64,000 nucleotides of DNA from Pigmentiphaga kullae. Its GTDB lineage: Bacteria > Pseudomonadota > Gammaproteobacteria > Burkholderiales > Burkholderiaceae_B. Positions 13,603 to 29,059 of this stretch are shown piece by piece. The position numbers and the translations under genes are program-made. Position 1 is the stretch's first letter, and each line of letters opens with the position of its first letter. Location of the stretch: the NCBI RefSeq assembly GCF_004216695.1, contig NZ_SGXC01000001.1, positions 1,550,001 to 1,614,000 of the forward strand, read 5' to 3'. The notes beneath the pieces are model-generated. The model ran no database searches. It worked only from the letters and a program-made list of their open reading frames with translations, and was not told the DNA's origin.

Positions 13603-15195
13603 TCAGGCTCTTCCCGGGCGCGCGCGACGCCGGGCCCGCCCGCCAGCGCCGTGGGCTTCCAGCTGCGAGCGGTAGGCTTCCTGAAGTTCCTGCTTCTTTA
13701 CCTTCCCCAGCGGCGTGCGGGGCAGACCGTCCACGAACATGAACTGGCCCGGGATCTGGCCGGCCGGCAGGCGGCCGTGGCAGAACTCGACGATGGCGGC
13801 CAGGGGTGGAGCGGGGCCGTCGGGGACAAGCACGGCGAGCAGCGCTTCTCCCGAGAACGGGTCGGGCACGCCTACCACCGCGGCCTCGGCAATGCCGGGG
13901 CACTGGCGCAGGATGTCCTCGACCGTCTTGGTATAGACGTTCGCGCCGCGCGCCGCGACCACTTCCACCTTGCGGTCCAGGATGTAGAGAAAGCCGTCGT
14001 CGTCGATGCGGCCGATATCGCCGGTATGGAATGCTCCCTGGCGGAAAACCCGGGCCTCTTCCTCGGGAAGGCCGAGATAGCCATCGGTGACCTGCGGCCC
14101 CGATACGACGATTTCGCCAGTCCCCCCCGCCGGCACTTCGCTGCCGGCGTCGTCGAGCAGCGCGAGCCGCGTGCCGGGCAGGACCCGTCCAGCCGCCTTG
14201 AGCAGTTCGGGGCGATCCGTCACGGCTCGGCGGTGCGCCTCTTCGTCCAGGATGGCAATGTAGGGCGAGGTTTCGGTCAGGCCGTAGCACTGGTGGAAAC
14301 CGGCGCGAGGGAAGGCGGCCATCGCGGCCCGCAGGGTGGACTCGTCCAGCGGCGAGGTGCCATAGCTGATCAGGCGCAGGCTGCGCAGATCGTAGCGGCT
14401 GACCGAGGTTTCCTTGAGGATGCGGGCGATCATGTCAGGCAGCAGGCTCGCGATGGTGACGCGATGACGCTCGATGGCATCGAGCACGTCCTCGGGCGAG
14501 GCATCCTTCAGGTAGACGTGCGAGCCCCCGAACATGCTGACCACGGTCGCCTTGAGATCCGTCGAGTGATACATGGGCGAGACATGGAGATAGATGTCCT
14601 CCGGTGCGGGGGCCATCACGCGGGCGAGCTGCAGCGCGTTGGCGACGACGTTGCGATGCGTGAGCCGGACTCCCTTGCCTCGGCCGGTGGTGCCGCCGGT
14701 ATAGAGACACAATGCAAGATCGTCTTCCCGCACCGCATGCGGCGCCGCAAGCCGCGCGTCGGCCAGCAGGGAGTCCGTACCGGGAATGCCGAAGATGCCG
14801 GGAGCGGCGCCGACGCAAACGGCTCGCCCGCGCCATGGAACAAGCTGCGCCTGATCCAGCAGATAGGCAAGTTCCTCGTCCACCATCAGCATCCGGCAGC
14901 CGGATTGCTCGAGCATCCAGGCGACGTCGCCGCCAGTGAGCCGGAAGTTCATGGGAATCGGCACGATGCCGGACCAGTACCCGCCCAGCAGCAGCTGGGC
15001 GTGCGAGACGGAATTCCGGCAAAGCGTGGCGAACCGCTCGCCCGGATGCAGCCCCAGCGAGCGGAGCATGTCGGCGCTGCGCGCGACGCGTTCGACAAGC
15101 TGCCTCCAACTGAGGCAGCCGGACGGCGAATGGATCGCCACCCGGTATCCATGCGCCTGGGCCGTGCTCTGCAACAGGTCGGGAAGCGTCAGCAA
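13603..15195 (-). CDS. AMP-forming acyl/aryl-CoA ligase (copy 1)
   Basis: An ANL-superfamily ligase that activates a carboxylic acid as the acyl-adenylate and then the CoA thioester. Visible motifs are YTGGTTGRGKGVRLTH (P-loop A3), YGLTETSP (A5), TGDIGRIDDDGFLYILDR (A7/A8) and the adenylation lysine region TPLGKVKKQEL near the C-terminus. I prefer the TTG at 15195: GGGAG lies seven bases upstream and it aligns with the start of paralogue 22441-23988 (LLTLPDLL versus VLTLPHLL). The in-frame ATG at 15270 overlaps ubiD and has no site. The protein is then 530 residues. It is the last gene of the DpgC-like cluster. Confidence 0.85.
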   Translation of the reverse strand: MLTLPDLLQSTAQAHGYRVAIHSPSGCLSWRQLVERVARSADMLRSLGLHPGERFATLCRNSVSHAQLLLGGYWSGIVPIPMNFRLTGGDVAWMLEQSGCRMLMVDEELAYLLDQAQLVPWRGRAVCVGAAPGIFGIPGTDSLLADARLAAPHAVREDDLALCLYTGGTTGRGKGVRLTHRNVVANALQLARVMAPAPEDIYLHVSPMYHSTDLKATVVSMFGGSHVYLKDASPEDVLDAIERHRVTIASLLPDMIARILKETSVSRYDLRSLRLISYGTSPLDESTLRAAMAAFPRAGFHQCYGLTETSPYIAILDEEAHRRAVTDRPELLKAAGRVLPGTRLALLDDAGSEVPAGGTGEIVVSGPQVTDGYLGLPEEEARVFRQGAFHTGDIGRIDDDGFLYILDRKVEVVAARGANVYTKTVEDILRQCPGIAEAAVVGVPDPFSGEALLAVLVPDGPAPPLAAIVEFCHGRLPAGQIPGQFMFVDGLPRTPLGKVKKQELQEAYRSQLEAHGAGGRARRRARPGRA

Positions 15196-15245
15196 GCGTG
15201 GACTCCCGTCACGTGGATGTTCAACCCTGCCCCCGGGGGGCCATG

Positions 15246-16667
15246 TCAGTCCGGGCAAACCTTTCGCCATGATCCGGAGGCAATGTCCGATCTTACCGCT
15301 TCGATATCGACCGCATCTCTTCCCGGTACGCCGATGCGCAGGAACTGTTCCGGCGGAGCGTCGACCGGCTTGGTGGCGTCCAGTCCCAGCTTGGATCCGA
15401 TCCCGCCCCGCGAGGTGGGGTCCAGCCTGGAGGCCCGGCAGTTGTCCACGACGACCAGGTCCCGGTCCGCCTGGAAGCGCGTGGCGACCGCCCATTCGAC
15501 TTCCTGCGGATCATAGATGTCTATGTCCTCGTCCACCACGATGACCTGCTTGACGTCGTGATGCATGGCGAGGGCGCTGAAGATGACGTTCTTGGCGCTG
15601 CCTTCGTGCAGCTTCTTCATCTGCACGTACAGATGGTAGCGGCCGACCCCGCCGGGGGCCAGGTGCACGTTGGTCACGTTGGGGAATATCCGCTGCATGG
15701 TCGTGAGAAAACTGGCTTCCCGCGCGACGGCGCCCAGCAGAATGTGTTCCGTGCCGCCGCCGATGATGGTGTGGAATATCGGCGACCGCCGGTGGGTGAC
15801 GGCATCGATCTCGATGACGAAGCGGTCGCCCCGCGGCCCGTAATATTGGGTGAATTCCCCGAACGGCCCCTCGGGCTCGCGCACGTTGGGCAGGATCCGG
15901 CCTTCGAGAACGATCTCGGCCTCGGCCGGAACGCGCAGATCATTGGTCAGGCACTTGATGACGCGCACCGGCTCGCCCCGCAGCGCACCGGCGACTTCGA
16001 GCTCGTCCTGGTCCATGGCCACGATGGCCTGCGACGCCATGAGCGTGAGCGGATCCACGCCGATGGCGATCGCGATGGGCAGAGGCTTGCCGGCTTTCTC
16101 GCACAGATTCAGGAAGGCGCCGGTGTCGCGCGACGAGACCGAGACACCCATCCGGTTGCCGCCCTTCAGGTGGCAGCGGTTGATCGACACGTTCTGCCGG
16201 CCGGTGCTGGGATTGCTGCTGATCAGCAGGCCCGCGGTCAGGTACGCGCCGCCGTCGTGCTCGTTGTGTATCGGGGCGGGGAGCAGCCTGCCGATGTCGA
16301 GGTCGCCGCGATGGATGATCTCCTGCACCGGTGCCTTGCCCACTTCTTCGCATGGCAGCGGGTTGCCCACCGCCTGCTGGTAGCGCTTGAGCAGGTCGGC
16401 GGGCGCCACGCCCATCGCGTCGGCGATCCATTCGCGCCGCGACACGATGCCTGACAGTACGGGAATGCGGTGTCCCTCCGGGGATGGAAAGAACGTCGCC
16501 TGGCGGCCGTCCAGCTTCGAGGCGATGGCGGCGATGTCGAACCGCAGGGACTTGCCTGCCTGGATGAGCGCGAGCCTGTCGTTGGCGGCCAGGCGGTCCA
16601 GCCATTCGCGCAGCGTCGTGACGGGTTGGGAGGCGTTGCGTGGTCCGGTGTGTGCGGCGTCTGCCAT
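15246..16667 (-). CDS. UbiD-family prenylated-FMN-dependent decarboxylase
   Basis: A 473-residue UbiD-family (de)carboxylase. The conserved catalytic stretch E-x-E-G-P-F-G-E lies at residues 264-271, and the upstream part NVSINRCHLKGGNRMGVSVSS holds the metal/prFMN phosphate-binding residues. These enzymes reversibly decarboxylate aromatic or alpha,beta-unsaturated acids using prenylated FMN made by UbiX, which is not in the window. AGGAGC precedes the ATG. The gene lies between an aldehyde dehydrogenase and a CoA ligase in an apparent operon. The context suggests it removes the carboxyl group of an aryl acid produced by the dehydrogenase. Confidence 0.9.
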   Translation of the reverse strand: MADAAHTGPRNASQPVTTLREWLDRLAANDRLALIQAGKSLRFDIAAIASKLDGRQATFFPSPEGHRIPVLSGIVSRREWIADAMGVAPADLLKRYQQAVGNPLPCEEVGKAPVQEIIHRGDLDIGRLLPAPIHNEHDGGAYLTAGLLISSNPSTGRQNVSINRCHLKGGNRMGVSVSSRDTGAFLNLCEKAGKPLPIAIAIGVDPLTLMASQAIVAMDQDELEVAGALRGEPVRVIKCLTNDLRVPAEAEIVLEGRILPNVREPEGPFGEFTQYYGPRGDRFVIEIDAVTHRRSPIFHTIIGGGTEHILLGAVAREASFLTTMQRIFPNVTNVHLAPGGVGRYHLYVQMKKLHEGSAKNVIFSALAMHHDVKQVIVVDEDIDIYDPQEVEWAVATRFQADRDLVVVDNCRASRLDPTSRGGIGSKLGLDATKPVDAPPEQFLRIGVPGRDAVDIEAVRSDIASGSWRKVCPD

Positions 16668-16698
16668 GGAGCGCTCCTGAGGGATGGGAGAAAGGGAA

Positions 16699-18141
16699 TC
16701 AGAAACTGGAGGTTTGCACGACGAGGCGGGTGGTCTGGTAGGCTTCGAGGCCTTCGGTGGCCCCCTCGCTGCCGTAGCCGCTTTCCTTGACGCCGCCCCA
16801 TGGCGTTTCCGGACCGTTGATGAAGAACGTGTTCAGGCCCAGCATGCCCGTATCCATCCTCTCGGAAAGCCGCAACTGCCGGCTGCCGTCGCCGGTGAAG
16901 GCGTAAGCCGCCAAGCCGTAGGGAAGAGCGTTCGCCTGTTCGATGACGGCTTCTTCGTCACGGAAAGGCAGCAGCAAGGCGATGGGGCCGAAAGGCTCTT
17001 CGCGCATGGCGCGGGCCTGGGCCGGCACGTCCGAGAACACGGTGGGGGCGAAGAAGTTTCCCGCCCGGTCCAGACGCTCTCCGCCCGCGATCAGCCGGGC
17101 GCCGGCGTATTTCAGGTCGGCCACCGCGTTCTCGATCGCCGCCAGCCGGCGGGTGTTCGCCAGCGGCCCCATCTGCGTCCCCTCGTCCAGGCCGGGGCCG
17201 ATCTTCAGCGCCGAGGCCGCCTGGGCGAAAGCGCCGGCGAAGCGTTCATAGATGCGCTCGTGCACATAGAAGCGCGTCGGCGAGACGCACACCTGGCCGG
17301 CGTTGCGGTACTTGCTGGCGATGCACAGGCGCACGACCGCGTCCACGTCGATGTCGTCGAAAACCAGAACCGGGGCATGGCCGCCCAGCTCCATGGTGAT
17401 GGGCTTGACCGCCGCGGCGGCCAGTCCGGCCAGTTGGCGCCCCACCGCGGTCGAGCCGGTGAAGGACACCTTGCGGACGACCGGCGAGGCGATGAGGTGC
17501 CTGGAGATCTCGGCCGGCACGCCGCATACCAGATTGATCACGCCGCGGGGCGCGCCGGCTTCGGCGAATGCGCGCACCATCTCGATCGCCGTGGCCGGCG
17601 CTTCTTCGGGGGCCTTGAGTATGCAGCAGCATCCAGCCGCCAGGGATGCGCCCAGCTTGCGGGCCGGCGTGGTCGCGGGGAAGTTCCAGGGCGAGAAGGC
17701 TGCGGCCACGCCTATCGGGCGTTTCAGGACGTTCTGCCGGATGCCTGCGGGACCGCCGACGATGCGCCCGTAGCCCCGCCTTCCCTCCTCGGCCATCCAT
17801 TCGATGTGCGCGGCGGCGCCGTCGACCTCGATAAGGGCCTCGGCAAGCGGCTTGCCTTCCTCGCGGGTCAGGAGGCGTGCGATGCGATCCCGGCGGCCGC
17901 GCATCAGCTCGGCGGCGCGCCGCAGGATACGGCCGCGTTCCACCGCCGGGGTCGCGCTCCAGCCCGGCCAGGCGGCGGCCGCCGACTGCAGCGCCCGGTC
18001 CAGGTCCGCCGGCGTGGCCGAGGGCAGCTCTCCCATGGGCTGCCCGGTGGCCGGGTCGACGACGGGGATGGTGTCGCGGCCCTCGCCGCCTATCCATTGG
18101 CCGTCGATGTAGAGTTTCAGATCGGGATGTTCGATGGACAT
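16699..18141 (-). CDS. NAD(P)-dependent aldehyde dehydrogenase
   Basis: A 480-residue aldehyde dehydrogenase of the succinate-semialdehyde/benzaldehyde dehydrogenase type. It has FSPWNFPATTPARKLGASLAAG for cofactor binding, the general base E251 in MELGGHAP and the nucleophile C285 in GQVCVSP, plus the conserved EEPFGPI segment. It oxidises an aldehyde to a carboxylate. AGAGAGG lies upstream of the ATG. In the cluster it follows the DpgC-like gene and precedes ubiD, as expected if it oxidises an aryl aldehyde made by one of the ThDP enzymes. The aldehyde's identity is inferred from context only. Confidence 0.9.
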   Translation of the reverse strand: MSIEHPDLKLYIDGQWIGGEGRDTIPVVDPATGQPMGELPSATPADLDRALQSAAAAWPGWSATPAVERGRILRRAAELMRGRRDRIARLLTREEGKPLAEALIEVDGAAAHIEWMAEEGRRGYGRIVGGPAGIRQNVLKRPIGVAAAFSPWNFPATTPARKLGASLAAGCCCILKAPEEAPATAIEMVRAFAEAGAPRGVINLVCGVPAEISRHLIASPVVRKVSFTGSTAVGRQLAGLAAAAVKPITMELGGHAPVLVFDDIDVDAVVRLCIASKYRNAGQVCVSPTRFYVHERIYERFAGAFAQAASALKIGPGLDEGTQMGPLANTRRLAAIENAVADLKYAGARLIAGGERLDRAGNFFAPTVFSDVPAQARAMREEPFGPIALLLPFRDEEAVIEQANALPYGLAAYAFTGDGSRQLRLSERMDTGMLGLNTFFINGPETPWGGVKESGYGSEGATEGLEAYQTTRLVVQTSSF

Positions 18142-18175
18142 GCATGCCTCTCTGCGGACGCGGTCCGGAAAGCCG

Positions 18176-19612
18176 TCAGAGCTTGCGCTCTTTGGCGTTC
18201 CAGTTCTTCTCGAGGTTGTTGATGAGATCTTCGCTCAGGTGGCAGAAGGCCTGCTCCCGCGCGTAGGTGACGAGGTATTGCCGCAGGGCCTCCATGGGCT
18301 CGGCCTGGGCGCGCAGCGCCTTGCGGTTCGCGCTGATGCTGACCATGCCGGCGCCCAGCGCGTTGGCCGCGCAGCGTTCGACCGCCTGTTCGATTTCCCC
18401 GGGCGGCACCACTTCGCTGACGAGCGTGCGGCCCTCGGGGGTCTCCACCTTGAACAGCTTGTCGAACATGATGGCCTGGCGCGCCAGCGCCTCTCCCGTG
18501 AAGCGCGGCAGCCGCAGGTTGGCCAGGCCGGGAATGATCCCTTCCTTGCGTGCCGGCAGGCTGAAGAAGGAGCCGGATTCGGCGATGACGTAGTCGGCCA
18601 CGAGCAGCAACTGGCACCCGCCGCCTATGGCGAACGTTTCGATGACCGCCACCCACGGCTTCTCGACGGTGGATTCGGGTTCGTCCAGCGGTACGTCCAG
18701 GCTGTCGGGCCCGGGAGGCAGGATGCCGCGGTGGACCTTGTTGAAAAACCCCATGTTCTTGGTCAGGAAGCCCAGGTACGATTTCTTGCCGCGATAGATG
18801 TGGGTCAGGTTGATGCCGGCAGAGAACACGCGGCGGCCGGCATACTTCGGGTGGTCGACCACGCCCCCGCGCATGACGCCCAGCCGCAGGTCGGCGTGCA
18901 TGAGGATGAGGTCGGTCGCCACCTCGAAGGGCACCATGGTGGTGTCGTCCTCGGCGTTCAGGTAGCGAAGGTTCTGGAACGTCAGGAATCCGGCCTGGGC
19001 CTTGGCCTCGACCAGCGCCTTGTCCAGCTGGACGCGTCCGCTCTTGCGGAATTCGTCCAGGTATTCGAACGACTGGGGCAGGGGCCTGAGCATGGTCCGT
19101 ATCAGGTGCGAACCGATGGCCCGGTCCGTGAACAGGTGGCTGAAGAAAAGGCCCTGGTTGATTTCCAGCCCGTCCTTGTCCTTTTGCAGCAATTCGCTTT
19201 CCGCCCGCAGCTCGTCCTTGCTGGGCAGGATGCCCGGCAGCCGCGCCGCGGCCTGCCAGGCCAGTTCGTCCACCCGCAGCGGACGCGTTCCGTTGCCCGT
19301 CAGGTCCCGGTACAGGGGGTGCGCATGGTGCCGGAAGAAGCGCCAGGCCGCGTCGGCCATCAGGTGGAAGATCACGTGCGCCACGTCTTTCTGCGTGGCG
19401 TCGCGGGCCGATTTGAGCGGTAGGCGGGCCAGCAGTTGGCGTCCCTGGTGGCACACGGACCGGACCAGGGCCGAGTCCTCGTCCAGCGTCGACGGCGCCG
19501 GCCGGGCCTCCCACGCCTGGACGGCTTGCAGGAACTGCGAGGTCGCGTCCCGCGGCAATCCCGCCGCGTCGATTCGTTGCTGGCGTTCGGTCAGGGGAAT
19601 GTGTTCGATCAT
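18176..19612 (-). CDS. DpgC-like crotonase-fold oxygenase (arylacetyl-CoA dioxygenase family)
   Basis: A 478-residue crotonase-fold protein with an extra helical N-terminal domain of about 190 residues, unlike ordinary 260-residue enoyl-CoA hydratases. This two-part layout, the oxyanion-hole segments FSAGINL (263-269) and IGGGCQL (329-335), and the ARKEGIIPGLANLRLPRF stretch (E357 onward) are hallmarks of DpgC, the cofactor-free (3,5-dihydroxyphenyl)acetyl-CoA 1,2-dioxygenase of glycopeptide pathways. DpgC uses O2 to turn an arylacetyl-CoA into an arylglyoxylate plus free CoA. GGAG lies six bases before the ATG. Its neighbours (CoA ligases, ThDP enzymes, aldehyde dehydrogenase, UbiD) suggest a catabolic role. 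It could instead be an unusual hydratase. Confidence 0.8.
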   Translation of the reverse strand: MIEHIPLTERQQRIDAAGLPRDATSQFLQAVQAWEARPAPSTLDEDSALVRSVCHQGRQLLARLPLKSARDATQKDVAHVIFHLMADAAWRFFRHHAHPLYRDLTGNGTRPLRVDELAWQAAARLPGILPSKDELRAESELLQKDKDGLEINQGLFFSHLFTDRAIGSHLIRTMLRPLPQSFEYLDEFRKSGRVQLDKALVEAKAQAGFLTFQNLRYLNAEDDTTMVPFEVATDLILMHADLRLGVMRGGVVDHPKYAGRRVFSAGINLTHIYRGKKSYLGFLTKNMGFFNKVHRGILPPGPDSLDVPLDEPESTVEKPWVAVIETFAIGGGCQLLLVADYVIAESGSFFSLPARKEGIIPGLANLRLPRFTGEALARQAIMFDKLFKVETPEGRTLVSEVVPPGEIEQAVERCAANALGAGMVSISANRKALRAQAEPMEALRQYLVTYAREQAFCHLSEDLINNLEKNWNAKERKL

Positions 19613-19671
19613 GTCAAGCTCCGTTCATGCAATGGATGGAACCGAGAGGTGCCCGGGCGTGGGGTCGGACC

Positions 19672-21354
19672 TCAGCGGTGTTGTTCGCTTCGCGCGCGCA
19701 GTTCGCTCAGCGTCGTTCGCGGGGTGATGGCCTCGGGGTCGATGCGCAATTCGATCAGGGCCCCGTGCGGGGCGGCGAGCGCACGCTCGAAGTTCGCCGC
19801 GAAGTCTTCGGTCTTTTCCACCGTGTAGCCGGCGATGCCATAGGCGGCCGCCAGCGCGGCGAAGTCCGGATTCTCCAGCGTCGTGCCGAAGACGTGGCCG
19901 GGATAATGGATCTCCTGGTGCATGCGTATGCTGCCGTACATGCCGTTGTTGACGACGATGAAGACCACGCGCAGGCCGTACTGCTTCGCGGTCGCCAGCT
20001 CCTGGCTGTTCATCAGGAAGCAGCCGTCGCCGGCGAAGCACACCACCCGACGGTCCGGGTGGATGGCCGCCGCGGCGCAGGCGGCGGGAATCCCGTAGCC
20101 CATGACGCCGCTGGCGGGCGCGAGCTGGGTGCGAAAGCCGCGGTACTGGAAGAAGCGATGGATCCAGCCGGTGTAGTTGCCCGCGCCGTTGGCGACGATC
20201 GCGTTGGCGGGCAGCCGATCGCGCACGTGCCGGACCACTTCGGCCAGGTTCAAGGATCCAGGCATGGCGGTGGGGACGAGCGTCGCGCAATAGTCTGCGT
20301 TCGCCGATCGTGTCCAGCCGGTCCATGCCGGGTGGCGCGGTGGTTCGAGCTTCGCCGCGGCAAGCGCGAAGTCGGCCATGCCGGCATTGATGGCCAGGTC
20401 GGGTCGGTAGACCTTGCCCAGTTCGTCGATGTCGGGATGGACATGGACGAACCGGGCCTCCATCGAGGGTACGGCCAGCAGGGTGTATCCCGCGGTCGTG
20501 GTCTCGCCCAGGCGCGCACCCACCGCGACGATCAGATCGGCCTGGCGTACCCTCCGTGCCAGCGACTCGGCGATCCCGACCCCGATGTCGCCGGCATAGT
20601 TGGGATGCGCGTTGTCGAACAGGTCCTGCCGGCGAAAGGCCGTGCCGACCGGCAATTGGAAGGCTTGCGCGAAAGCCTGGATGCCGGCGCAGGCCTCGGC
20701 GCTCCAGCCGCCTCCGCCCAGTATCATGAGCGGGCGCCGCGCCAGTTCGATCAACTCGCGCAAGCGCGCCATGTCGGCAACGCCGGGCTGCGGCTGTACC
20801 GGCGCGAAGGGCCGGGTGTCGGGCAGGTCCAGATGCCGGTAGAGCACGTCCTCGGGCAAGCCGACGACGACGGGGCCCGGCCGGCCCGAGACCGCGGTCT
20901 GGAACGCGCGGTTCATCATCTCGGGCAGGCGTTCCAGATGGTCGACCTGCGTGACCCATTTCGCCAACGAACCGAACATGCTGCGCAGATCGATCTCCTG
21001 CCAGGCCTGACGTTCCAGCAGATGTGTGCCGACCTGTCCCACGAGCAGGATCATGGGCGTCGAATCCTGGCTGGCGGTGTGGACGCCGATGCTGGCATTG
21101 GTCGCGCCCGGTCCCCGGGTGACCAGGCAGACGCCGGGCTTGCCGGTCAGTTTCCCGTAGGCCTCCGCCATGTGCGCCGCCGCGCCTTCCTGCCGGCAGA
21201 CGATCGTCCTGATGACGTCGCTGGACGCGTGCAGCGCGTCCAGTGCGGGCAGGAAGCTCTCGCCGGGTACGCAGAAGGCGTGGTCGACGCCATGTGTCTT
21301 GAGCGCATCGACGAGGATCTGGCCGCCGGTTCGCAGGGAAGTGACTTGCAACAT
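19672..21354 (-). CDS. Thiamine-diphosphate enzyme, acetolactate synthase/decarboxylase-like (copy 1)
   Basis: A 560-residue ThDP-dependent enzyme with all three domains. The N-terminal pyrimidine-binding domain carries the catalytic glutamate E56 in CRQEGAAAHMAEAYG, followed by a central domain. The C-terminal domain has the Mg/diphosphate motif GDG at 442-444 with the downstream NN. The family includes acetolactate synthases, benzoylformate and oxalyl-CoA decarboxylases. A biosynthetic acetolactate synthase is unlikely: no small subunit gene is present and the gene sits directly upstream of the DpgC-like oxygenase. I infer a decarboxylase acting on a 2-oxo acid such as an arylglyoxylate. 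The second ThDP gene in the cluster may do this instead. Confidence 0.85.
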   Translation of the reverse strand: MLQVTSLRTGGQILVDALKTHGVDHAFCVPGESFLPALDALHASSDVIRTIVCRQEGAAAHMAEAYGKLTGKPGVCLVTRGPGATNASIGVHTASQDSTPMILLVGQVGTHLLERQAWQEIDLRSMFGSLAKWVTQVDHLERLPEMMNRAFQTAVSGRPGPVVVGLPEDVLYRHLDLPDTRPFAPVQPQPGVADMARLRELIELARRPLMILGGGGWSAEACAGIQAFAQAFQLPVGTAFRRQDLFDNAHPNYAGDIGVGIAESLARRVRQADLIVAVGARLGETTTAGYTLLAVPSMEARFVHVHPDIDELGKVYRPDLAINAGMADFALAAAKLEPPRHPAWTGWTRSANADYCATLVPTAMPGSLNLAEVVRHVRDRLPANAIVANGAGNYTGWIHRFFQYRGFRTQLAPASGVMGYGIPAACAAAAIHPDRRVVCFAGDGCFLMNSQELATAKQYGLRVVFIVVNNGMYGSIRMHQEIHYPGHVFGTTLENPDFAALAAAYGIAGYTVEKTEDFAANFERALAAPHGALIELRIDPEAITPRTTLSELRARSEQHR

Positions 21355-21388
21355 CGAATGCTCCGGATGCGGATGGATGGGGGGCGGG

Positions 21389-22375
21389 TCAGTCGGCGGT
21401 CGCGCCGGACTCCTTGATGACCTTCGACCAGCGCCGGGCCTCGGCGCGCACGTGCGCCGCCATTTCCTCCGGTGTGCTCGGGGTGGCTTCCAGGCTGACT
21501 TCCTTGAGCTTCTCGACGAAAACCGGATCGATCAGGACGGTATTCAGAGCCTGGTTCATGCGGGCGACGACGTGTCTGGGCAGGCTGGCCTGCCCCACCA
21601 TGCCGAACCAGACACTGGTGGTGAGATTCGGATAGCCCGCCTCGGTAACCGTGGGAACGTCGGGAAGCTGGAACCAGCGCTGCCTGGAAGTCACGGCAAT
21701 GGGGCGGACCTTGCCGGCCTGGATCTGCGGCAGCAGTTGCGGAAGGTTGTCGGTGTTGAACTGCACCTCGCCGGCCAGCAGGGCCTGCATGGCGGGGCCG
21801 TTGCCGCGATAGGGAACGTGCAGGATCTCGATTCTGGTCAGCGTCTTGATCAATTCGTTCAGCAGATGGCCCGTGCTGCCTATGCCGGCGCTGGAGTACG
21901 CCACCTTGCCGGGATGGGCTCTGGCATGTTCGATGAGCTGGCTGAGCGAATTCACCTTCAGCGACGGCGAGACCACGATGGCGTTCGGCGTCTGGGTCGC
22001 GAGCCCGATCGAAACGAAGTCCTTTTCGGCGTCGTAGCCGAGATCCGTTTTGTACAGATAAGGATTGATCGACAACTGGGACGGCGTGATCATCATGAAG
22101 AAATGATCGTCGGGCGACGATTTGGCGAAATAGGCCGCGCCGACCGAACCCGCGGCACCGCCCCGGTTCTCGACCACCACCGGCTGGCCCAGGGTCTGCG
22201 AGAGTCTCTGCGCGATGAGGCGGCTGGCGATATCGGTCGAGCCGCCGGCGGCGTAGGGAACCAACAGCCGGATCGGCCGTTGCGGCCAGGCCGGTTCGGC
22301 GGCGTAGGACGCCGCCGGAACGAGCAGTGCCAGCAGGATGCCGGCCCACCACGTGCGTTGACGGAATCGGTACAT
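21389..22375 (-). CDS. Bug-family periplasmic solute receptor
   Basis: A 328-residue Bug receptor with a signal peptide of about 25 residues (LLALLVPAASYAAEP). The family sequence WPQRPIRLLVPYAAGGSTDIASRLIA, the VVENRGGAAGSVGAA loop and HVPYRGNGPAMQALLAGEV are all present. It lies between the second CoA ligase and a ThDP enzyme, so it is probably co-expressed with the cluster and captures its aromatic acid substrate in the periplasm. No membrane transporter genes accompany it. Confidence 0.9.
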   Translation of the reverse strand: MYRFRQRTWWAGILLALLVPAASYAAEPAWPQRPIRLLVPYAAGGSTDIASRLIAQRLSQTLGQPVVVENRGGAAGSVGAAYFAKSSPDDHFFMMITPSQLSINPYLYKTDLGYDAEKDFVSIGLATQTPNAIVVSPSLKVNSLSQLIEHARAHPGKVAYSSAGIGSTGHLLNELIKTLTRIEILHVPYRGNGPAMQALLAGEVQFNTDNLPQLLPQIQAGKVRPIAVTSRQRWFQLPDVPTVTEAGYPNLTTSVWFGMVGQASLPRHVVARMNQALNTVLIDPVFVEKLKEVSLEATPSTPEEMAAHVRAEARRWSKVIKESGATAD

Positions 22376-22440
22376 GGAAGTCTCCTCGTTATCGATTTCT
22401 GCGGGTGGTACGGGTGCCGGTACCGCGGTCGGCCGGCGTG

Positions 22441-23988
22441 TCAGCAGGTTTCCCTCGTCTCGAGATAGGCGCGGCGCAGCTCGTCCTTGCGGACCTTGCC
22501 GAGCGACGATCGGGGCAGCATGTCGACGAACATGAATCGCCGCGGGATCTTGTATCCGCCAAGGTGGCGCCTGCAGAACTCGATGATCTCCGCCGGCGCC
22601 GGGCGCGACGCCGCGGGTACGACGACCGCCAGCAGCGCCTCGCCGTACCTGGCGTCCGGGATGCCGACGACGGCGGCATCGGCCACGTCCGGATGCAGGA
22701 CGAGCACGGATTCCACTTCCCGCGTATAGACGTTCTCGCCGCCTGTGATCACCATGTCTTTCTTGCGGTCGAGAATGTGCAGGTAGCCGTCCTCGTCCAG
22801 GCGGCCGATGTCGCCCGTGTAGAGCCAGCCGTCCCGGAACGTCGCGGCGTTTTCCTGCGGCCGATTGTGATAGCCGGCCGCCACCTGCGGCCCGGACACG
22901 GCGATTTCTCCCGGTTGGCCGGGCGCGGCCTCGTTGCCGCCGTCGTCGAGAAACCGGATGGCGGTGGCGGGCAGCAGCCGCCCGGCGGACTTCAGGAGTT
23001 CGGGGCGTTCGCGCAGCGCGAACCGATGGGCCGCTTCGTCAAGGATCGCCAGATAGGGGGATGTCTCCGTCAGGCCATAGCATTGGTGGAAGCCGACGTG
23101 GGCAAAGCGGCCCATGGCCTTGCGCAGCGATTGTTCGTCCATGGGCGCGGTGCCGTAGCTGATCAGCCGCAGCCGGGACAGGTCATGGCGGTCCATGCCG
23201 GTCTCCTTGAGAATGCCGATGATCATGGTGGGTACCAGGCTGGCGATCGTGACGCCTCGCTGCGCGATGGCTTCCAGCACACCCTGGGGCGAGAACTCGC
23301 TCAGATAGGTATGGCCGCCGCCGAACATCGTCACCACGGTGGCTTTCAGGTCGGTGGAGTGGAACATCGGCGAGACGTGCAGGTAGACGTCGTCCGCGCA
23401 AGGCGACATCACTCGGGCCAACTGCAGCGCGTTGGCGACGATGTTGCGATGCGTGAGCCTGACCCCCTTGCCGCGTCCGGTGGTGCCGCCGGTATAAAGC
23501 AGCAGCGCTTCGTCGTTTTCCCCGCAGTCATGGGCGCAGGCGCGTGGACTGGCCTGGGTCAGGTCCGCCATGGTTGCAAGGTCCGCCGGTCCGTCCTGCA
23601 GCCGGACGCGGATGGCCCGCGAGCGCCACGAGGCCAGCGGCGGTTGTTCGAACAGCGGCATGAAGTCGTCGTCCAGCATGACGGCCTTGCACTGGGCATC
23701 TTCCAGCATGGCGGCGATCTCCGCCGGAGCCAGGCGGAAATTCAGCGGCGCCGGCACGATGCCCGACCAGAAGCCCGCCAGGAGCAACTGGGCATGGTCC
23801 ACAGAATTGCGGCACAGCGTGGCGAATCGATCGCCAGGGTTCAGGCCAAGCTCCCGGAGCATGCCCGCGGTGCGCGCCACGCGCGCGAGATAGTCGTTCC
23901 AGCTCAGGTCGCCCGACGGATCGATGATCGCCTTGCGCCGGCCGTAAGCCTGGACGGTGTTCTTCAGTAGATGGGGAAGGGTCAGCAC
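22441..23988 (-). CDS. AMP-forming acyl/aryl-CoA ligase (copy 2)
   Basis: A paralogue of the ligase at 13603-15195, with the same RFATLCRNSV opening region, YTGGTTGRGKGVRLTH, YGLTETSP, TGDIGRLDEDGYLHILDRKKD and SSLGKVRKDEL motifs. It converts a carboxylic acid to its CoA thioester. The open frame reaches a GTG at 24048, but that codon lies on the edge of the operator at 24048-24075 and upstream of its -10 box (24022-24027). The GTG at 23988 (MLTLPHLLKN, 515 residues) is therefore the better start. It heads the second transcription unit of the cluster. Two ligases may serve two acids or two steps. Confidence 0.87.
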   Translation of the reverse strand: MLTLPHLLKNTVQAYGRRKAIIDPSGDLSWNDYLARVARTAGMLRELGLNPGDRFATLCRNSVDHAQLLLAGFWSGIVPAPLNFRLAPAEIAAMLEDAQCKAVMLDDDFMPLFEQPPLASWRSRAIRVRLQDGPADLATMADLTQASPRACAHDCGENDEALLLYTGGTTGRGKGVRLTHRNIVANALQLARVMSPCADDVYLHVSPMFHSTDLKATVVTMFGGGHTYLSEFSPQGVLEAIAQRGVTIASLVPTMIIGILKETGMDRHDLSRLRLISYGTAPMDEQSLRKAMGRFAHVGFHQCYGLTETSPYLAILDEAAHRFALRERPELLKSAGRLLPATAIRFLDDGGNEAAPGQPGEIAVSGPQVAAGYHNRPQENAATFRDGWLYTGDIGRLDEDGYLHILDRKKDMVITGGENVYTREVESVLVLHPDVADAAVVGIPDARYGEALLAVVVPAASRPAPAEIIEFCRRHLGGYKIPRRFMFVDMLPRSSLGKVRKDELRRAYLETRETC

Positions 23989-24021
23989 GCCTGCATCTGC
24001 CGGTGGAAAACGATGCAGAAA

Positions 24022-24075
24022 ATGATAGGGAGAGAGGCTTGCCGACACCCTACCGCCCAGTCCTGCTACCTACCC
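24022..24075 (-). promoter_or_regulatory. Activator site plus -10 box for the CoA ligase/DpgC operon
   Basis: Reading the minus strand: GGGTAGGT (24075-24068), six bases, ACTGG (24061-24057), GCGGTAGGG (24056-24048), then exactly 20 bases and TATCAT (24027-24022). The two GGTAGG half-sites are 20 bp apart in direct orientation, as for AraC-family dimers. No -35 hexamer is visible; the proximal half-site occupies its position, as at an activator-dependent promoter. The same design occurs at 28002-28055 and, less perfectly, at 26855-26894. Confidence 0.7.
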
Positions 24076-24091
24076 GGGAGTCGGATTTTTT

Positions 24092-25060
24092 CTAGAGCGC
24101 CAGGTTCAATGCCTTGATGAGCCGGCCGAACTTGCCGTGTTCTTCCTTGAGAAATGACTGTGGCGAGCCGGTGTCCGGAATATCGATGCCTTCCTTGGCC
24201 ATCGCGGCCTGGAACCCTGGATCCGCCAGGGTTTCGCGGACCTTGCCGCTCAACAGCGACAGTATCGGCGCTGGCGTGCCGCGCGGGGCGAACAGACCGC
24301 TCCAGTTGGCGAGGACAAAGTCGTCCAGTCCGGCTTCCTTCAAGGTCGGGACGTTGGGCAGCGTGGGCGACCGGGTCGCGCTGGTTACCGCATAGGCCTT
24401 GATCTCGCCGGCATCGATCAGGGCCTTGGACGGCAGGATCCCCGAGAAGTACAGGTCCAGGTGCCCGCCCGCCACGTCGTTGGCCGCCTGCGCGCCGCCT
24501 TTGTAGGGCACGTGCTTGATGTCGAGCGCCGTGGACCGCTTGAGCCATTCGCCCGCAAGGTGGGCCGGGCTGCCGACCGCGCCGCCGAAGTTGTAGTTGC
24601 CCGGCTGGCGGGCGATCTCTTGGCGCAAGTCCTGGAAGTTGGCAGCCTTGAAGCTTTTCCTGCCGATGAGTACCAGCGGCGTCGAGCCGACGATCGCAAT
24701 CGGCTCGAAGTCTTCGGGTCGGTACGGCACCTTGCGTACCTGCGGGATGATGACCATCTCGGTATTCAGTCCCAGCAGCAGCGTGTAGCCATCCGGCGCC
24801 GCTCGCGCGACGGACATGACGCCTATCGTGCCGCTGGCGCCAGGCTTGTTGACGACCACCACCGTCTGTCCCAGCCTGCGTTCCAGCCCCAGCGCGAGAT
24901 TGCGCGCGGCGAAGTCGGTCGAGCCGCCGGGCGCATAGGGCACGACGATCTGGATGGGTTTCGATGGGTAGGTTTCGCCTGCGCGCGCGCCCGGCGCGCA
25001 GGCGAACAGCGTCGCCACCGCGAAGAATGCAGCCGTCGCCCGCCGCGTTTGCTTGTTCAT
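24092..25060 (-). CDS. Bug-family periplasmic solute receptor
   Basis: A 322-residue Bug receptor. AAGGAG lies six bases before the ATG at 25060, which decides against the upstream ATG at 25066 and the longer reading. The signal peptide (MNKQTRRATAAFFAVATLF...GARAGE) is followed by YPSKPIQIVVPYAPGGSTDFAARNLA, NKPGASGTIG and HVPYKGGAQAANDVAGG. It starts 16 bases after the upstream ThDP gene, so the two form one unit from the promoter at 26855-26894. It is clearly distinct in sequence from the other Bug proteins here, suggesting a different ligand. Confidence 0.9.
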   Translation of the reverse strand: MNKQTRRATAAFFAVATLFACAPGARAGETYPSKPIQIVVPYAPGGSTDFAARNLALGLERRLGQTVVVVNKPGASGTIGVMSVARAAPDGYTLLLGLNTEMVIIPQVRKVPYRPEDFEPIAIVGSTPLVLIGRKSFKAANFQDLRQEIARQPGNYNFGGAVGSPAHLAGEWLKRSTALDIKHVPYKGGAQAANDVAGGHLDLYFSGILPSKALIDAGEIKAYAVTSATRSPTLPNVPTLKEAGLDDFVLANWSGLFAPRGTPAPILSLLSGKVRETLADPGFQAAMAKEGIDIPDTGSPQSFLKEEHGKFGRLIKALNLAL

Positions 25061-25076
25061 GAGCATCTCCTTGAAG

Positions 25077-26810
25077 TCAGATCCGTACGACCTTGGCATG
25101 CAGGACGGCGGAGCGTCCTGCCCTGACTGCGTGGATGCACCGGTCGAGTGCCGCGCCTACCTGGGCGGGGTCGTCGACAAGCTCGCCGTAGGCGCCGAAT
25201 GCTTCCCCGAGCTTGGCGAAGTCCGCATTGCCCGGCAGCTCCGCCTCGTAGGCGTCCTGCCGTCTTGCGCTGCCGTCCGGATAGACGCGCAGGGTCGATT
25301 CCTTGACCGCCGACCATCCGGCGTTGTCGACGACGACGACCAGGATGGGCAGTCCATAGAAACCCGAGACGGCCAGGACCGAGCTCGGGATGTTGAAGTA
25401 GAGACTGCCATCGCCCACCACCTGTATCGCCATCAGGTCCGGATCGGCAAGCCGCGCGCCCAGGGCCATGGCGCCGGAGGCGCCCAGCCCGCCGCCGCCG
25501 ACGCGCACCAGGGTGCCGGGCAGCGGGCGGGTGAGCTGCTCCGCCAGGGCGGGGGAATTGCGGACCGCTTCGTTGAAGACGATGTCCTGGGGCCGCAGGC
25601 GCCTGTCGAGTTCGGCGAACAGGAAGTGCGGGTTGATCCGGCCGGGCGCGCCCGGATCGGCGGCCTTGTCCCGTGCCTTGCGCCGGCGCCGTTCGTTCTC
25701 GGCGGCGATGCGCGCGTTGCGGTCCTCGACCGCGCTGGCGAATGCCGGCGTGGATTTCTCCTCGAGCGCCTGGGCCAATTGTTCGAGGATGCGCGCGCTG
25801 TCGCCCTGGATCCGCGCGTTTGCAGGAAAGCTCCACATCGGCGAAGCCGTCTTCAGCGTGTCGACGTCGATCTGCGCCCAGAAGGCGCGGGCATGCGGCT
25901 GGATATCGCGCGAGAACCACGGCACGTCCGTGTCCACCATGAGGCCGACGTCGGCGTCAGGGATCGCGCCGCCCGGCTGGAAACCGCAGAAATTGGGGCC
26001 TTCGTGGGATATGTTGTTGACCGGGTTCGATTCGAAGACGCGTATGCCGGCCAGGCTGGCCAGGCGTTCGATGGCCGCCGAGGTACGGCGATTGCGGCCG
26101 CCGAACGAGGTGATCAGAATGGGCCGCTCGGCCGCCAGGAGGCGGTCGGCCACGGCGTCGAGCTGGCGCGGATCGGCGCCGGCCGGCGCGATGGCGCCGA
26201 ATTGCGCTTCCGGATAGGACTTGATGCGATCAACCGGCCAGGGTTCGGCCAGCGTTTCGCGCGGCAGCATCAGGTAGACCGGACCCTGGGGTTCGCTCTG
26301 CATGAACGCCTGGGCACGGCGCAGCGCCTCCTTCACCACAATGCCGGAGGGCAAGGTCCATTCCCACTTCACGAAGGGGCGGACCAGGCTGCCCTGGTCG
26401 AACGGCTCCTGGATGTAGTGCACGTAGTTGTCGCGCGTACCAGGCAGTTCCCCTGCCGCGGTAAAGGGCGCCTTGCCGGCCATCAGGAGAACGGGCAGGC
26501 GGCTGCGGAACAGGTTGTGCATGGCCATCGAGGCATTGGCCGTGCCGACGTCGACGTGGACCAGGACACCCTGGCCCCTGCCTGTCACCAGGGCGTAGCC
26601 TGCGGCCATGTGCACAGCCGTGTTCTCGTGCGGGCAGCGGATCACCTGCGGCGCTTTCTCCCCCCGCTCGCGCAGGCGCGCCAATTCCTCGATGATGGGA
26701 GCATGGTCGGTTCCCATGTTGCAGAACAGGTAATCGATGCCGATCTCCGTCAGGCCTTCCAGCAGGAGGCCGGCGGTGGCGCGTGTGTCGTCTGTGAGAG
26801 TGTGTTGCAT
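25077..26810 (-). CDS. Thiamine-diphosphate enzyme, benzoylformate decarboxylase/acetolactate synthase-like (copy 2)
   Basis: A 577-residue ThDP enzyme with the catalytic glutamate E62 in CPHENTAVHMAAGYA and the diphosphate motif GDG at 466-468 with VVVVDNAGW downstream. The start at 26810 (MQHTLTDD) is chosen because the longer frame crosses the promoter and has no family similarity. It is only distantly like the other ThDP gene at 19672-21354. It heads the minus-strand unit next to the divergent AraC gene. Decarboxylation of an aromatic 2-oxo acid (arylglyoxylate to aryl aldehyde) is the role that best fits the DpgC-like neighbour. This is inference. Confidence 0.83.
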   Translation of the reverse strand: MQHTLTDDTRATAGLLLEGLTEIGIDYLFCNMGTDHAPIIEELARLRERGEKAPQVIRCPHENTAVHMAAGYALVTGRGQGVLVHVDVGTANASMAMHNLFRSRLPVLLMAGKAPFTAAGELPGTRDNYVHYIQEPFDQGSLVRPFVKWEWTLPSGIVVKEALRRAQAFMQSEPQGPVYLMLPRETLAEPWPVDRIKSYPEAQFGAIAPAGADPRQLDAVADRLLAAERPILITSFGGRNRRTSAAIERLASLAGIRVFESNPVNNISHEGPNFCGFQPGGAIPDADVGLMVDTDVPWFSRDIQPHARAFWAQIDVDTLKTASPMWSFPANARIQGDSARILEQLAQALEEKSTPAFASAVEDRNARIAAENERRRRKARDKAADPGAPGRINPHFLFAELDRRLRPQDIVFNEAVRNSPALAEQLTRPLPGTLVRVGGGGLGASGAMALGARLADPDLMAIQVVGDGSLYFNIPSSVLAVSGFYGLPILVVVVDNAGWSAVKESTLRVYPDGSARRQDAYEAELPGNADFAKLGEAFGAYGELVDDPAQVGAALDRCIHAVRAGRSAVLHAKVVRI

Positions 26811-26894: not shown

Positions 26895-27109
26895 CGGATC
26901 TTGCCTCCGGTCGCGACAGGAAAAATCACCGTGGAGGCGTGTCTCGTGAAAAAAACTGACACGGTCTTTCCATGGTCCCGCGCGTGGCTGGATCGGCGCT
27001 TTCTTTCTGGATATTCTCAAGACCCCGACCACGGGACGCAGCGCCGGTGCGGCGCTGCCATGCGGACAAGAACACGCCGGGAAACGCGACTCGGACAGCG
27101 GAGGCAGGA

Positions 27110-27961
27110 ATGACCAAGGCCGTCAGGCTCTATCAAGGCGCTTTCGGGCGTGCGTCCATGCTTGATTCCGACCATGACCTGGTCACCCATGCCCATCCGC
27201 AATGCCACGTGCTGGTCAAGGTCGCGGGCGCGGACGCTTTCTACACGGTACGAGGCGAAACCGTCCGGCTATCCGAAGACTCGCTGGTTCTGGTCAACGC
27301 ATGGGAACCGCATTCCAAGCTGCAGCCGCGGGAGGGGGAACGCACCACTGTCCTGATCCTTTGCATGGAGCCGGCCTGGCTGGCGGAGCACGATCCGCTG
27401 CTCTCGGGCAGCGGCATGCCGGACTTCTTCCCCTCCGCCCAGGTGCGCGTGCCGCTATCCATCCGCAAGCTGGTGGATCGGCTCGTGCTCGAAGTGCTCG
27501 GTTCGTCCCCCTCCGGCCTGCCCAACCGGGCGGTCGAGGCGGCGCTGTCGGACTTCATGCTTGCGATCACGCACCTTTTCGCGGTGCGGCGCAACTGGAT
27601 CGACACCTACAGGCTGAAGATGCGCCACCGTCCCGACACGCGCATCGCACGGGCAATCCAGTACATCGGCGACCACCTGGACCAGACCATTACCTGCGAA
27701 GAACTGGCCGGCCTGCACAGCCTGTCGCGCCAGCATTTCTTCTCGCTCTTCCGCCAGCACACGAACATGTCTCCCATCCTGTACATGAATACGCTGCGCA
27801 TGGAGAGCGCGTTCAAGACGCTGACCGAATGCTCGACCTCGGTAAACGTGCTGGCCGACGATCTGGGGTTTTCCGAACCGCATCATTTCACGCGTTTCTT
27901 CCGCCGCAATCTCGGCATTCCTCCCAGCCAGTACCGGCGGGGCGTTGCGCTTATCGCCTGA
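27110..27961 (+). CDS. AraC-family transcriptional regulator
   Basis: A 283-residue AraC/XylS regulator. An N-terminal cupin-like sensing domain (THAHPQCHVLVKVAG...LVLVNAWEPH) is followed by two HTH motifs from about residue 180 (LAGLHSLSRQHFFSLFRQHTNMSPILYMNTLRME and LADDLGFSEPHHFTRFFRRNLGIPPSQYRR). GGAGG lies six bases before ATG 27110. The gene is divergent from the ThDP operon and followed by a Bug gene; all three nearby promoters carry the GGTAGG-type operator. The most economical reading is that this protein activates them in response to the pathway substrate. Confidence 0.9.
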   Translation: MTKAVRLYQGAFGRASMLDSDHDLVTHAHPQCHVLVKVAGADAFYTVRGETVRLSEDSLVLVNAWEPHSKLQPREGERTTVLILCMEPAWLAEHDPLLSGSGMPDFFPSAQVRVPLSIRKLVDRLVLEVLGSSPSGLPNRAVEAALSDFMLAITHLFAVRRNWIDTYRLKMRHRPDTRIARAIQYIGDHLDQTITCEELAGLHSLSRQHFFSLFRQHTNMSPILYMNTLRMESAFKTLTECSTSVNVLADDLGFSEPHHFTRFFRRNLGIPPSQYRRGVALIA

Positions 27962-28055: not shown

Positions 28056-28093
28056 TCCGTCCAGGTCCGAGAACCCGAGAAATGGAGACGACA

Positions 28094-29059
28094 ATGCACG
28101 CGATGCGCATGCTCATGATGGTGGGCGCCCTGGCGGTCCTGGCCGGTCCGGCTGCCGCGGCCGAGTTTCCGGCCCGGCCCATCCGCCTGGTGGTGCCTTT
28201 CGAGGCGGGAGGCACCATCGATACGCTGGGCCGCGTGGTTGCCGCCCAGATCGACAAGCAGTCCGAATGGGGCATCGTGGTCGACAACAAGGCGGGCGCC
28301 AATGCCTTGATCGGCACCGCCGATGCGGCCAAGGCCGCGCCCGATGGCTATACCATTCTGCATACCTCGCCATCGATCGTCATCAACACGTTCATACACA
28401 AGAAGACGCCCTACGACCTGTCCAGCACTTTCGTGCCCGTTACCAACCTGGCCGTCGGAACCGGCTATCTGCTGGTCGTGCGGCAAGGGCTGCCGGTCCA
28501 TGACGTTGCCGGGCTGGTCGAGCTCGCGCGCAAGAAGGAGCTCACGTATGGGTCTCCGGGCATCGGCAACGCCCTGCACCTGGCGGCGGCGGGATTCGCC
28601 AAGAAAGCGCACGTCGACATGCTGCACATTCCGTTCAAGGGTAGCGCCAGCTCGCTCAATGCCATCGCCGCGGGACAGGTGGACGTCATGATGCTGTCCC
28701 CGCCCACGGTGATTCCGTACGTCCAGTCGGGCAAGATCCGCCCCATCGCGTTCACCGGCGAGAGCCGGTCCAAGGAATTTCCCGAGGTTCCGACCATGAA
28801 GGAAGCGGGTATCGACGACTTCGTCGTCATGGGGACCTGGGCGGGATGGTTCGCGCCGGCAGGCACTCCGCCCGCGGTGGTGAACAGGCTCGCCGCCGAG
28901 GTCGCCAAGGCGCTCAAGGCGCCCGAGGTCGCGAGCATGCTGGAGAAGGGCGGCTTCGAACCGGACGGCCGTTCGCCCCAGGCATTCGCGGAATTCGTGC
29001 GCCAGGAAACCAGACGCTACGGGCAGATCGTCAAGGACGCCGGCATCGCGCCGCAGTAG
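28094..29059 (+). CDS. Bug-family periplasmic solute receptor
   Basis: A 321-residue Bug receptor with a signal peptide MHAMRMLMMVGALAVLAGPAAAAE and the family segments RPIRLVVPFEAGGTIDTLG, VVDNKAGANALIGTADAAKAAPDGYTIL and HIPFKGSASSLNAIAAG. The ATG at 28094 is preferred to 28082 because GGAG (28084-28087) lies six bases before it. The gene follows araC and has its own copy of the GGTAGG operator, so it is probably part of the aromatic-acid regulon. It is the third receptor assigned to this cluster. Confidence 0.9.
   Translation: MHAMRMLMMVGALAVLAGPAAAAEFPARPIRLVVPFEAGGTIDTLGRVVAAQIDKQSEWGIVVDNKAGANALIGTADAAKAAPDGYTILHTSPSIVINTFIHKKTPYDLSSTFVPVTNLAVGTGYLLVVRQGLPVHDVAGLVELARKKELTYGSPGIGNALHLAAAGFAKKAHVDMLHIPFKGSASSLNAIAAGQVDVMMLSPPTVIPYVQSGKIRPIAFTGESRSKEFPEVPTMKEAGIDDFVVMGTWAGWFAPAGTPPAVVNRLAAEVAKALKAPEVASMLEKGGFEPDGRSPQAFAEFVRQETRRYGQIVKDAGIAPQ

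Follow-up and report, generated by a model that had tools for sequence, protein, structure and literature searches.

A DpgC-like protein within a conserved nine-gene unit of Pigmentiphaga that probably serves the breakdown of an aromatic acetic acid

Introduction

The mandelate pathway comprises mandelate dehydrogenase, benzoylformate decarboxylase and benzaldehyde dehydrogenase, while the anaerobic phenylacetate pathway runs through phenylglyoxylate and employs PadBCD, a molybdenum oxidoreductase that needs no O2. Here we analyse a stretch of 64,000 nucleotides from Pigmentiphaga kullae (contig NZ_SGXC01000001.1; G000:C1:1550001-1614000), referred to below as the window, in which nine genes, among them one for a relative of DpgC, an oxygenase familiar from the synthesis of vancomycin-type antibiotics, probably form a catabolic operon for an aromatic acetic acid, itself likely electron-rich and perhaps heteroaromatic.

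A DpgC homologue, a thiamine diphosphate (ThDP) decarboxylase and an aldehyde dehydrogenase acting in series have been proposed to produce the 3,5-dihydroxybenzoate starter unit of kendomycin and venemycin (VemC-VemE-VemF and the Ken enzymes; accessible part of PMC5132015). DpgC has also been predicted in antibiotic clusters of Xanthomonas (accessible part of PMC3849588), and the accessible part of an article on phenylacetate degradation makes no mention of it (PMC13186573). The literature searched, in which subscription papers were mostly beyond reach, yielded no catabolic DpgC among the matches listed. An earlier note on this DNA, written from the sequence alone, had considered a catabolic DpgC to be new; this agrees with the literature matches listed, but the series of DpgC, ThDP enzyme and aldehyde dehydrogenase had already been proposed. 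As far as those matches show, what is new is a side of the DpgC family tree without DpgA linkage and with PaaK-type neighbours, and the linking of such a protein, seemingly for catabolism, to uptake receptors and a UbiD decarboxylase.

Results

A nine-gene unit and its proposed route

A minus-strand run from 26810 to 13603 encodes, in this order, ThDP enzyme 2 (ThDP2), Bug receptor 2, CoA ligase A, Bug receptor 1, ThDP enzyme 1 (ThDP1), the DpgC-like protein, an aldehyde dehydrogenase, UbiD and CoA ligase B. We propose that the Bug receptors would aid arylacetate uptake and that CoA ligase A would convert the arylacetate to arylacetyl-CoA, from which the DpgC-like enzyme, with O2 and no cofactor, would form arylglyoxylate and free CoA. 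ThDP1 (or ThDP2) would then decarboxylate the arylglyoxylate to an aryl aldehyde, the aldehyde dehydrogenase would oxidise this to the aryl carboxylate, and UbiD, which is of HmfF type, would remove the carboxyl group. What the analysis shows directly is the set of genes, the predicted fold, the residues of the active site, the conservation of the unit and the existence of parallel clusters; the reactions, the sequence in which they run, the substrate, and what CoA ligase B and ThDP2 do are all inferred. The series as the earlier note had drawn it finds indirect support in homology, the DpgC active site and a second cluster of the genome (L140, below) as far as a decarboxylated arene, and none for resorcinol as end product. 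The features are as follows.

25077..26810, minus strand: ThDP enzyme 2 (PRK08327 type), first operon gene; NCBIfam 616 bits against a cutoff of 456, scored on the longer open reading frame 25077-27032
24092..25099, minus strand: Bug/TctC receptor 2 (solute uptake); Pfam TctC 202.8 bits
22441..24048, minus strand: acyl-CoA ligase A, proposed arylacetate-CoA ligase; Pfam AMP-binding
21389..22375, minus strand: Bug/TctC receptor 1; Pfam TctC 212.7 bits
19672..21354, minus strand: ThDP enzyme 1 (PRK08199 type), proposed arylglyoxylate decarboxylase; NCBIfam 865 bits against a cutoff of 539
18176..19612, minus strand: DpgC-like protein, 478 amino acids (aa), proposed cofactor-free arylacetyl-CoA 1,2-dioxygenase; PDB DpgC, E 2.5e-82
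16699..18141, minus strand: aldehyde dehydrogenase; Pfam Aldedh 503.9 bits
15246..16667, minus strand: UbiD decarboxylase, HmfF type; TIGR00148 350 bits against a cutoff of 244.85
13603..15213, minus strand: acyl-CoA ligase B (start inferred); Pfam AMP-binding
26972..27961, plus strand: AraC-type regulator, divergent from the operon; Pfam HTH_18; kept in L014-L016
28082..29059, plus strand: third Bug-type receptor, conserved alongside the nine genes; blastp cluster c2; also present in L014-L016

All nine genes lie on the minus strand with the places and families that the earlier note had assigned. Since they share a strand and are separated by at most 65 bp (gaps of -23, 43, 65, 34, 59, 34, 31 and 32 bp, the last reckoned from the inferred start of CoA ligase B), we read them as one operon. 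The start of CoA ligase B had been placed at 15495; it is probably near 15213 instead, because the longer open reading frame overlaps UbiD and the AMP-binding domain begins only at residue 109. The two ligases are 60% identical (blastp) and likely arose by duplication. Their best family scores (396.9 and 451.4 bits) are to families other than PaaK, and by the TIGR02155 cutoff (646.3 bits) neither is a PaaK.

Three further Pigmentiphaga loci, L014-L016, have all nine genes in the same order, which argues that the grouping is not due to chance. L014 and L015 are near-identical to the window locus; L016 is at 85%, and its flank past CoA ligase B differs from that of the window. Across the genus, the same set of 4 genomes out of 11 carries the DpgC-like gene, UbiD (at least 87% identity) and ThDP2 (at least 81%), and more distant homologues of UbiD (to 55%) and ThDP2 (to 66%) are found in other genomes of the genus too.

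The DpgC-like protein has the DpgC fold in prediction and most of its active site

Among solved structures, DpgC entries are the best relatives of the window protein (2np9, E 2.5e-82), with ordinary crotonases next (E 4e-12). Its AlphaFold2 (AF2) model, at a predicted local distance difference test (pLDDT) score of 94, has the DpgC fold with the helical N-terminal domain, in agreement with the earlier description of 18176-19612 as a 478-aa DpgC-like protein with that domain and DpgC motifs. Foldseek comparison of the model gave DpgC entries as all of the top 19 matches (TMt 0.90-0.93), among them 2pg8, the R254K mutant of DpgC with a bound substrate analogue, and ordinary crotonases followed from E 1.4e-11. 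The result that the earlier note had named as damaging to its proposal, an ordinary hydratase devoid of DpgC catalytic residues, was not seen.

Six of the seven DpgC active-site positions checked are kept: E189, H222, I235, G296, Q299 and I324, which we take to be active-site residues, correspond to E221, H254, I267, G331, Q334 and I359 of the window protein. The seventh, R254, is a natural lysine, K285. When 69 sequences were aligned (67 of 68 loci, with the partial gene of L065 left out, plus the window and PDB DpgC), the E189, G296 and Q299 positions were identical in 69/69, and the R254 position was R in 65/69 and K in four Pigmentiphaga rows (the window and L014-L016). The H222 position holds H in 58/69 and another residue in 11 (L035, L036, L037, L040, L042, L044, L047, L048, L050, L051 and L053), and at eight of these loci a gene of a PaaK or Ior cluster lies close by.

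A hydratase, isomerase or thioesterase could reuse this fold with no oxygenase activity. The protein belongs to the crotonase superfamily, carries the natural K at the R254 position, and scores 370.7 bits against a cutoff of 530 for the DpgC equivalog family of NCBIfam (NF042432), for which reason we call it DpgC-like and not DpgC. We nevertheless consider a non-oxygenase improbable, given that DpgC entries fill the top 19 structural matches, that these include the R254K mutant, that three positions are invariant, and that PaaK-type genes adjoin DpgC-like genes.

The substrate pocket and UbiD point away from resorcinol

A phenolic OH is reportedly held by R254 and E189 of DpgC. Six rows of the alignment (the window, L014-L016, L026 and L027) depart from the rest in the R254-bearing helix: window position 281, F or W in 63/63 other rows, is G or S in these six (G in the window), position 286, D or E in 63/63 other rows, is N or S (N in the window), and six further positions are also exclusive to them. 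These changes were searched for after the fact, and common ancestry alone could yield them.

The window UbiD, in which PF20695, PF01977 and PF20696 all score above cutoff, has HmfF (6h6v) as its nearest solved structure (446 bits, 47.6% identity over 437 aligned residues). Lower matches were AnInD, an indole-3-carboxylate decarboxylase (220 bits), UbiD 5m1c/2idb (188/187), VdcCD-type 7ae4 (176) and AroY-type enzymes (163-175). H296, R304 and R331 of HmfF, the two arginines being sites that we presumed worth checking, are kept as H308, R316 and R343, and alignments judged by eye do not have them so in AnInD and the 5m1c UbiD. HmfF is a furan-2,5-dicarboxylate decarboxylase (accessible part of PMC8988006); the histidine (H297 in the numbering of the paper, H296 here) is described as key for its furan specificity, and AroY is proposed to act via a quinoid (accessible parts of PMC7976604).

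Together with the HmfF-type UbiD, the disappearance of a bulky residue one turn of the helix ahead of K285 argues for a ring other than 3,5-dihydroxyphenyl, and we tentatively put forward a heteroaromatic or other electron-rich arylacetate, at somewhat less than an even chance. The earlier note had suggested 3,5-dihydroxyphenylacetate, which would pass via 3,5-dihydroxybenzoate to resorcinol. DpgC itself does act on (3,5-dihydroxyphenyl)acetyl-CoA, the Ken/Vem enzymes are proposed to yield 3,5-dihydroxybenzoate (accessible part of PMC5132015), and the E189, H222 and Q299 positions are kept. The K at the R254 position and the altered neighbouring helix (G for F/W at 281 and N for D/E at 286) do not support this substrate, nor does the HmfF-type UbiD, against which AroY, UbiD and VdcC types score far lower, and meta-OH groups presumably could not support the quinoid route proposed for AroY. 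We regard the resorcinol route as very unlikely.

Use of thiophene-2-acetate by Xanthobacter tagetidis, the source of L044, could not be confirmed, thiophene-2-carboxylate being the only thiophene named in its genome report (PMC6624754). The same genome encodes an HmfF-type UbiD followed directly by an aldehyde dehydrogenase (L121), on a contig other than that of its DpgC-like gene.

A parallel cluster without DpgC shares the downstream genes

The best solved relatives of ThDP2 are benzoylformate decarboxylases (E 2.9e-25), and its score for the benzoylformate decarboxylase family PRK07092 is 124 bits, below the cutoff of 493. For ThDP1, PRK07092 is not among the best 25 families listed, the lowest of which scores 245 bits. 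We assign ThDP1 to arylglyoxylate mainly on account of a parallel cluster in the same genome:

G000:C1:2102000-2121000, positions 5666-14658: L140, mandelate-type cluster with a UbiD, an MR-superfamily protein, a flavin mononucleotide (FMN) hydroxy-acid dehydrogenase, an aldehyde dehydrogenase and a ThDP enzyme

The UbiD of L140 (C1:2110885), the second of HmfF type in the genome, is 52-54% identical to that of the window, its aldehyde dehydrogenase and ThDP1 homologue are 34% and 61% identical to their counterparts, and Bug-like genes are also there. The FMN 2-hydroxy-acid dehydrogenase matches lactate oxidase (7f22, E 1.9e-92) and (S)-mandelate dehydrogenase (6bfg, E 8.7e-92) almost equally, and its best NCBIfam family is L-lactate dehydrogenase, under cutoff. 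From its genes, L140 looks like a mandelate-type route to arylglyoxylate that continues through the same series of ThDP1, dehydrogenase and UbiD. That a mandelate/lactate-dehydrogenase-like gene accompanies homologues of ThDP1, the aldehyde dehydrogenase and UbiD, with no DpgC, supports arylglyoxylate as an intermediate common to both clusters; by analogy, CoA ligase and DpgC-like protein of the window would stand in for the hydroxy-acid dehydrogenase of L140.

The association of DpgC-like gene and UbiD recurs in another lineage

A search of Burkholderiales for co-occurring DpgC, UbiD and ThDP genes, which the earlier note had named as a check, found the whole unit in L014-L016 and a DpgC-like gene with UbiD on the L065/L106 contig. 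This contig, from a Burkholderiales metagenome-assembled genome (MAG), holds a partial DpgC-like gene, a CoA ligase (50%), a Bug gene (59%) and a UbiD gene (71%). The L026 and L027 genomes encode a UbiD 68-69% identical to that of the window, together with Bug1 and a Bug3-like gene (L104 and L105). Window Bug1 is 58-60% identical to the Bug proteins of L104, L105 and L106, the third Bug of the window (28082..29059) is 53-54% identical to a gene adjoining UbiD in L104 and L105, and ligase A shares 49-51% identity with three CoA ligases, those adjoining DpgC in L027 and in L065 and another that UbiD follows or precedes at a distance of two genes in L104. L026 also has a benzoylformate-decarboxylase-like ThDP gene divergent to DpgC (PRK07586, 552 bits against a cutoff of 363; best PDB match benzoylformate decarboxylase, E 8e-27). 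L026 and L027 are the nearest tree neighbours of the Pigmentiphaga rows (Shimodaira-Hasegawa-like approximate likelihood ratio test, SH-aLRT, 88, not starred), and the contigs of the L026/L027/L065 lineage may share one gene order. The UbiD of L017, only 31% identical and about 4 kb off, was rejected as independent support. In the taxonomic order to which the window belongs, DpgC-like genes are rare, found in 13 of 399 genomes with its own included (E 1e-60).

These linkages bear on whether UbiD acts on a separate compound (e.g. a furan dicarboxylate) that merely shares the operon, the DpgC branch stopping at the aryl carboxylate or, via CoA ligase B, at its CoA ester. Such a division overlaps with the arylacetate route and would suit the conserved histidine reported as key to furan specificity (accessible part of PMC7976604), the occurrence of HmfF-type UbiDs without a DpgC-like gene in 8 of 61 relatives, and the presence of two CoA ligases. 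The grouping of UbiD with an aldehyde dehydrogenase and a ThDP1 homologue in the DpgC-free L140, and of UbiD with DpgC in the lineage of L065/L106, speaks for a joint pathway, and we judge separate substrates to be unlikely, if the most credible of the alternatives.

Most DpgC-like proteins lie apart from DpgA-linked loci

We built a tree of 68 rows (L081 omitted as too short) by a quick method with SH-aLRT and no bootstrap, and rooted it ourselves on the DpgA-linked rows. A split with SH-aLRT 100 separates 12 rows, namely PDB DpgC and 11 loci that carry a gene of the DpgA cluster, from the 56 others, and the window protein falls outside the clade of DpgA-bearing loci and lacks the DpgA linkage of DpgC. 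In L080, the only DpgA-linked locus tested, DpgA and DpgB pass their own cutoffs.

Gene neighbours were counted at 68 places (67 loci and the window), where 788 other genes were called; absent neighbours mean little because many contigs are short. A PaaK-cluster ligase directly adjoins the DpgC-like gene at 15 of the 68 places (14 on the same strand), all on the non-DpgA side, and these 15 are every PaaK-cluster gene among the 788. Solirubrobacter accounts for 6 of the 15, including one identical pair, and three changes are required to explain the PaaK label on the tree. Three of these genes were tested against TIGR02155 (PaaK, cutoff 646.3): L037 (679 bits) and L050 (683 bits) pass, and L068, whose gene call lacks about 40 N-terminal residues, scores 501. 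Genes of the indolepyruvate-oxidoreductase-like IorA/IorB clusters lie near the DpgC-like gene in L032, L042 and L044; in L042, the only such locus tested, the IorB-like protein passes its cutoff (552 bits, 348) and the IorA-like protein falls below its own (292 bits, 651). In family terms, PaaK-type neighbours fit an arylacetyl-CoA substrate and IorAB-like neighbours fit onward use of arylglyoxylate, and a link to an arylpyruvate or arylglyoxylate oxidoreductase is possible in L042, L044 and L032.

Streptomyces L046, L055 and L057 also fall on the non-DpgA side, with AMP-binding-cluster genes near the DpgC-like gene and, in L055, an adjacent open frame of 2809 aa. These rows, perhaps another biosynthetic use, imply that not every member of this side need be catabolic. 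Could the window locus likewise be a secondary-metabolite cluster that makes an aryl carboxylate or arylglycine, as in Ken/Vem or Dpg? Its order of DpgC, ThDP enzyme and dehydrogenase is that proposed for Vem, and L055 and L057 show AMP-binding proteins and a large frame on the same side of the tree. We think this most unlikely: uptake receptors and a carboxyl-removing UbiD suggest breakdown, and no gene of the DpgA/DpgB clusters (c4, c9) lies in window 5-32 kb or in L014-L016 (the whole 64 kb was not scanned for polyketide synthases or non-ribosomal peptide synthetases).

Several further observations concern the neighbourhoods themselves. L042, L044 and L048 have a gene for a binding protein (in L042, where it was tested, Peripla_BP_6) and apparent ABC transporter genes. 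In 8 loci (L018, L020, L021, L023, L024, L025, L031 and L059) the region downstream of DpgC holds a hemerythrin-type protein (c6, seen in 9 loci) and, after it, a member of a family of roughly 440 aa (cluster c8), whose L059 copy matched nothing in Pfam or NCBIfam at the cutoffs applied. A Pfam scan of 28 further neighbour genes of other DpgC-like loci (beyond PaaK and IorA-like) found rhodanese, pirin, hemerythrin, PALP, SURF1, threonine synthase, amino-acid decarboxylase and other families, from which no pathway emerged. L037, a MAG record titled Bordetella parapertussis with a PaaK-DpgC pair, groups with Betaproteobacteria, and its name may be wrong. Near the operon, at window 31096-34021 and 34913-35647, are molybdenum hydroxylase subunits (Fer2_2, MoCoBD) and a crotonase, and in L035 and L037 a gene of the same cluster as these adjoins the DpgC-like gene.

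Discussion

Apart from the score below the DpgC equivalog cutoff, the lysine at the R254 position and the HmfF-type UbiDs without DpgC, several findings weigh against a catabolic arylacetate operon. ThDP1 is nearest to acetolactate synthase among solved structures, the ThDP family of L026 carries the NCBIfam name acetolactate synthase, and ThDP2 homologues at 64-66% identity are found outside the unit. The MR-superfamily protein of L140 best matches an uncharacterised entry, 3bjs. Two PF02441 matches in the genome do not separate UbiX from other flavoproteins, and 14 of 14 controls match too. Homologues of ThDP1 and ThDP2 in the L026, L027 and L065 genomes have about 50% identity and lie on other contigs, and an aldehyde dehydrogenase match was found in one of the three; these homologues were not counted as linked genes.

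More broadly, we see about an even chance that a wider family of cofactor-free arylacetyl-CoA dioxygenases serves breakdown in Proteobacteria, Solirubrobacterales, Chloroflexota and SAR324, with DpgC as the branch specialised for antibiotics. Such a family would be the O2-dependent counterpart of the anaerobic phenylglyoxylate route, with differing downstream modules (ThDP enzyme, aldehyde dehydrogenase and UbiD in Pigmentiphaga, IorAB-like proteins elsewhere) and, in the UbiD-linked lineage, a pocket changed for a different, possibly heteroaromatic ring. If true, a cofactor-free oxygenase of antibiotic synthesis gains a general role in aromatic acid breakdown, arylacetates could be shortened aerobically without prior attack on the ring, and natural variants, including a natural R254K, would become available to study metal- and flavin-free O2 activation by protein.

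Compared with solved DpgC (2np9, 4ylh, 5kah, 2pg8), the window protein shares the predicted fold with its helical N-terminal domain, the motifs and six of seven checked active-site positions. It differs in its 37-38% identity in structural alignments, K at the R254 and L at the V425 position, a score below the equivalog cutoff, no DpgA-cluster gene nearby and a place on the other side of the tree. VemC-VemE-VemF and Ken likewise combine a DpgC homologue, a ThDP decarboxylase and an aldehyde dehydrogenase in series; there, however, a polyketide synthase makes the arylacetyl-CoA and the acid is used, whereas the CoA ligases, Bug receptors and UbiD of the window point to a compound that is taken up and removed. 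HmfF (6h6v), the nearest solved UbiD, has H296, R304 and R331 in common with the window enzyme and differs at R294, which is T306 in the window, in gene context and, presumably, in substrate. PadBCD also takes arylacetyl-CoA to arylglyoxylate, but as a molybdenum oxidoreductase independent of O2. The mandelate pathway passes from arylglyoxylate through the aldehyde to the acid, as proposed here, and such a cluster with a UbiD is present in the same genome (L140); its arylglyoxylate derives from mandelate, whereas that of the window operon would derive from a CoA ester and O2.

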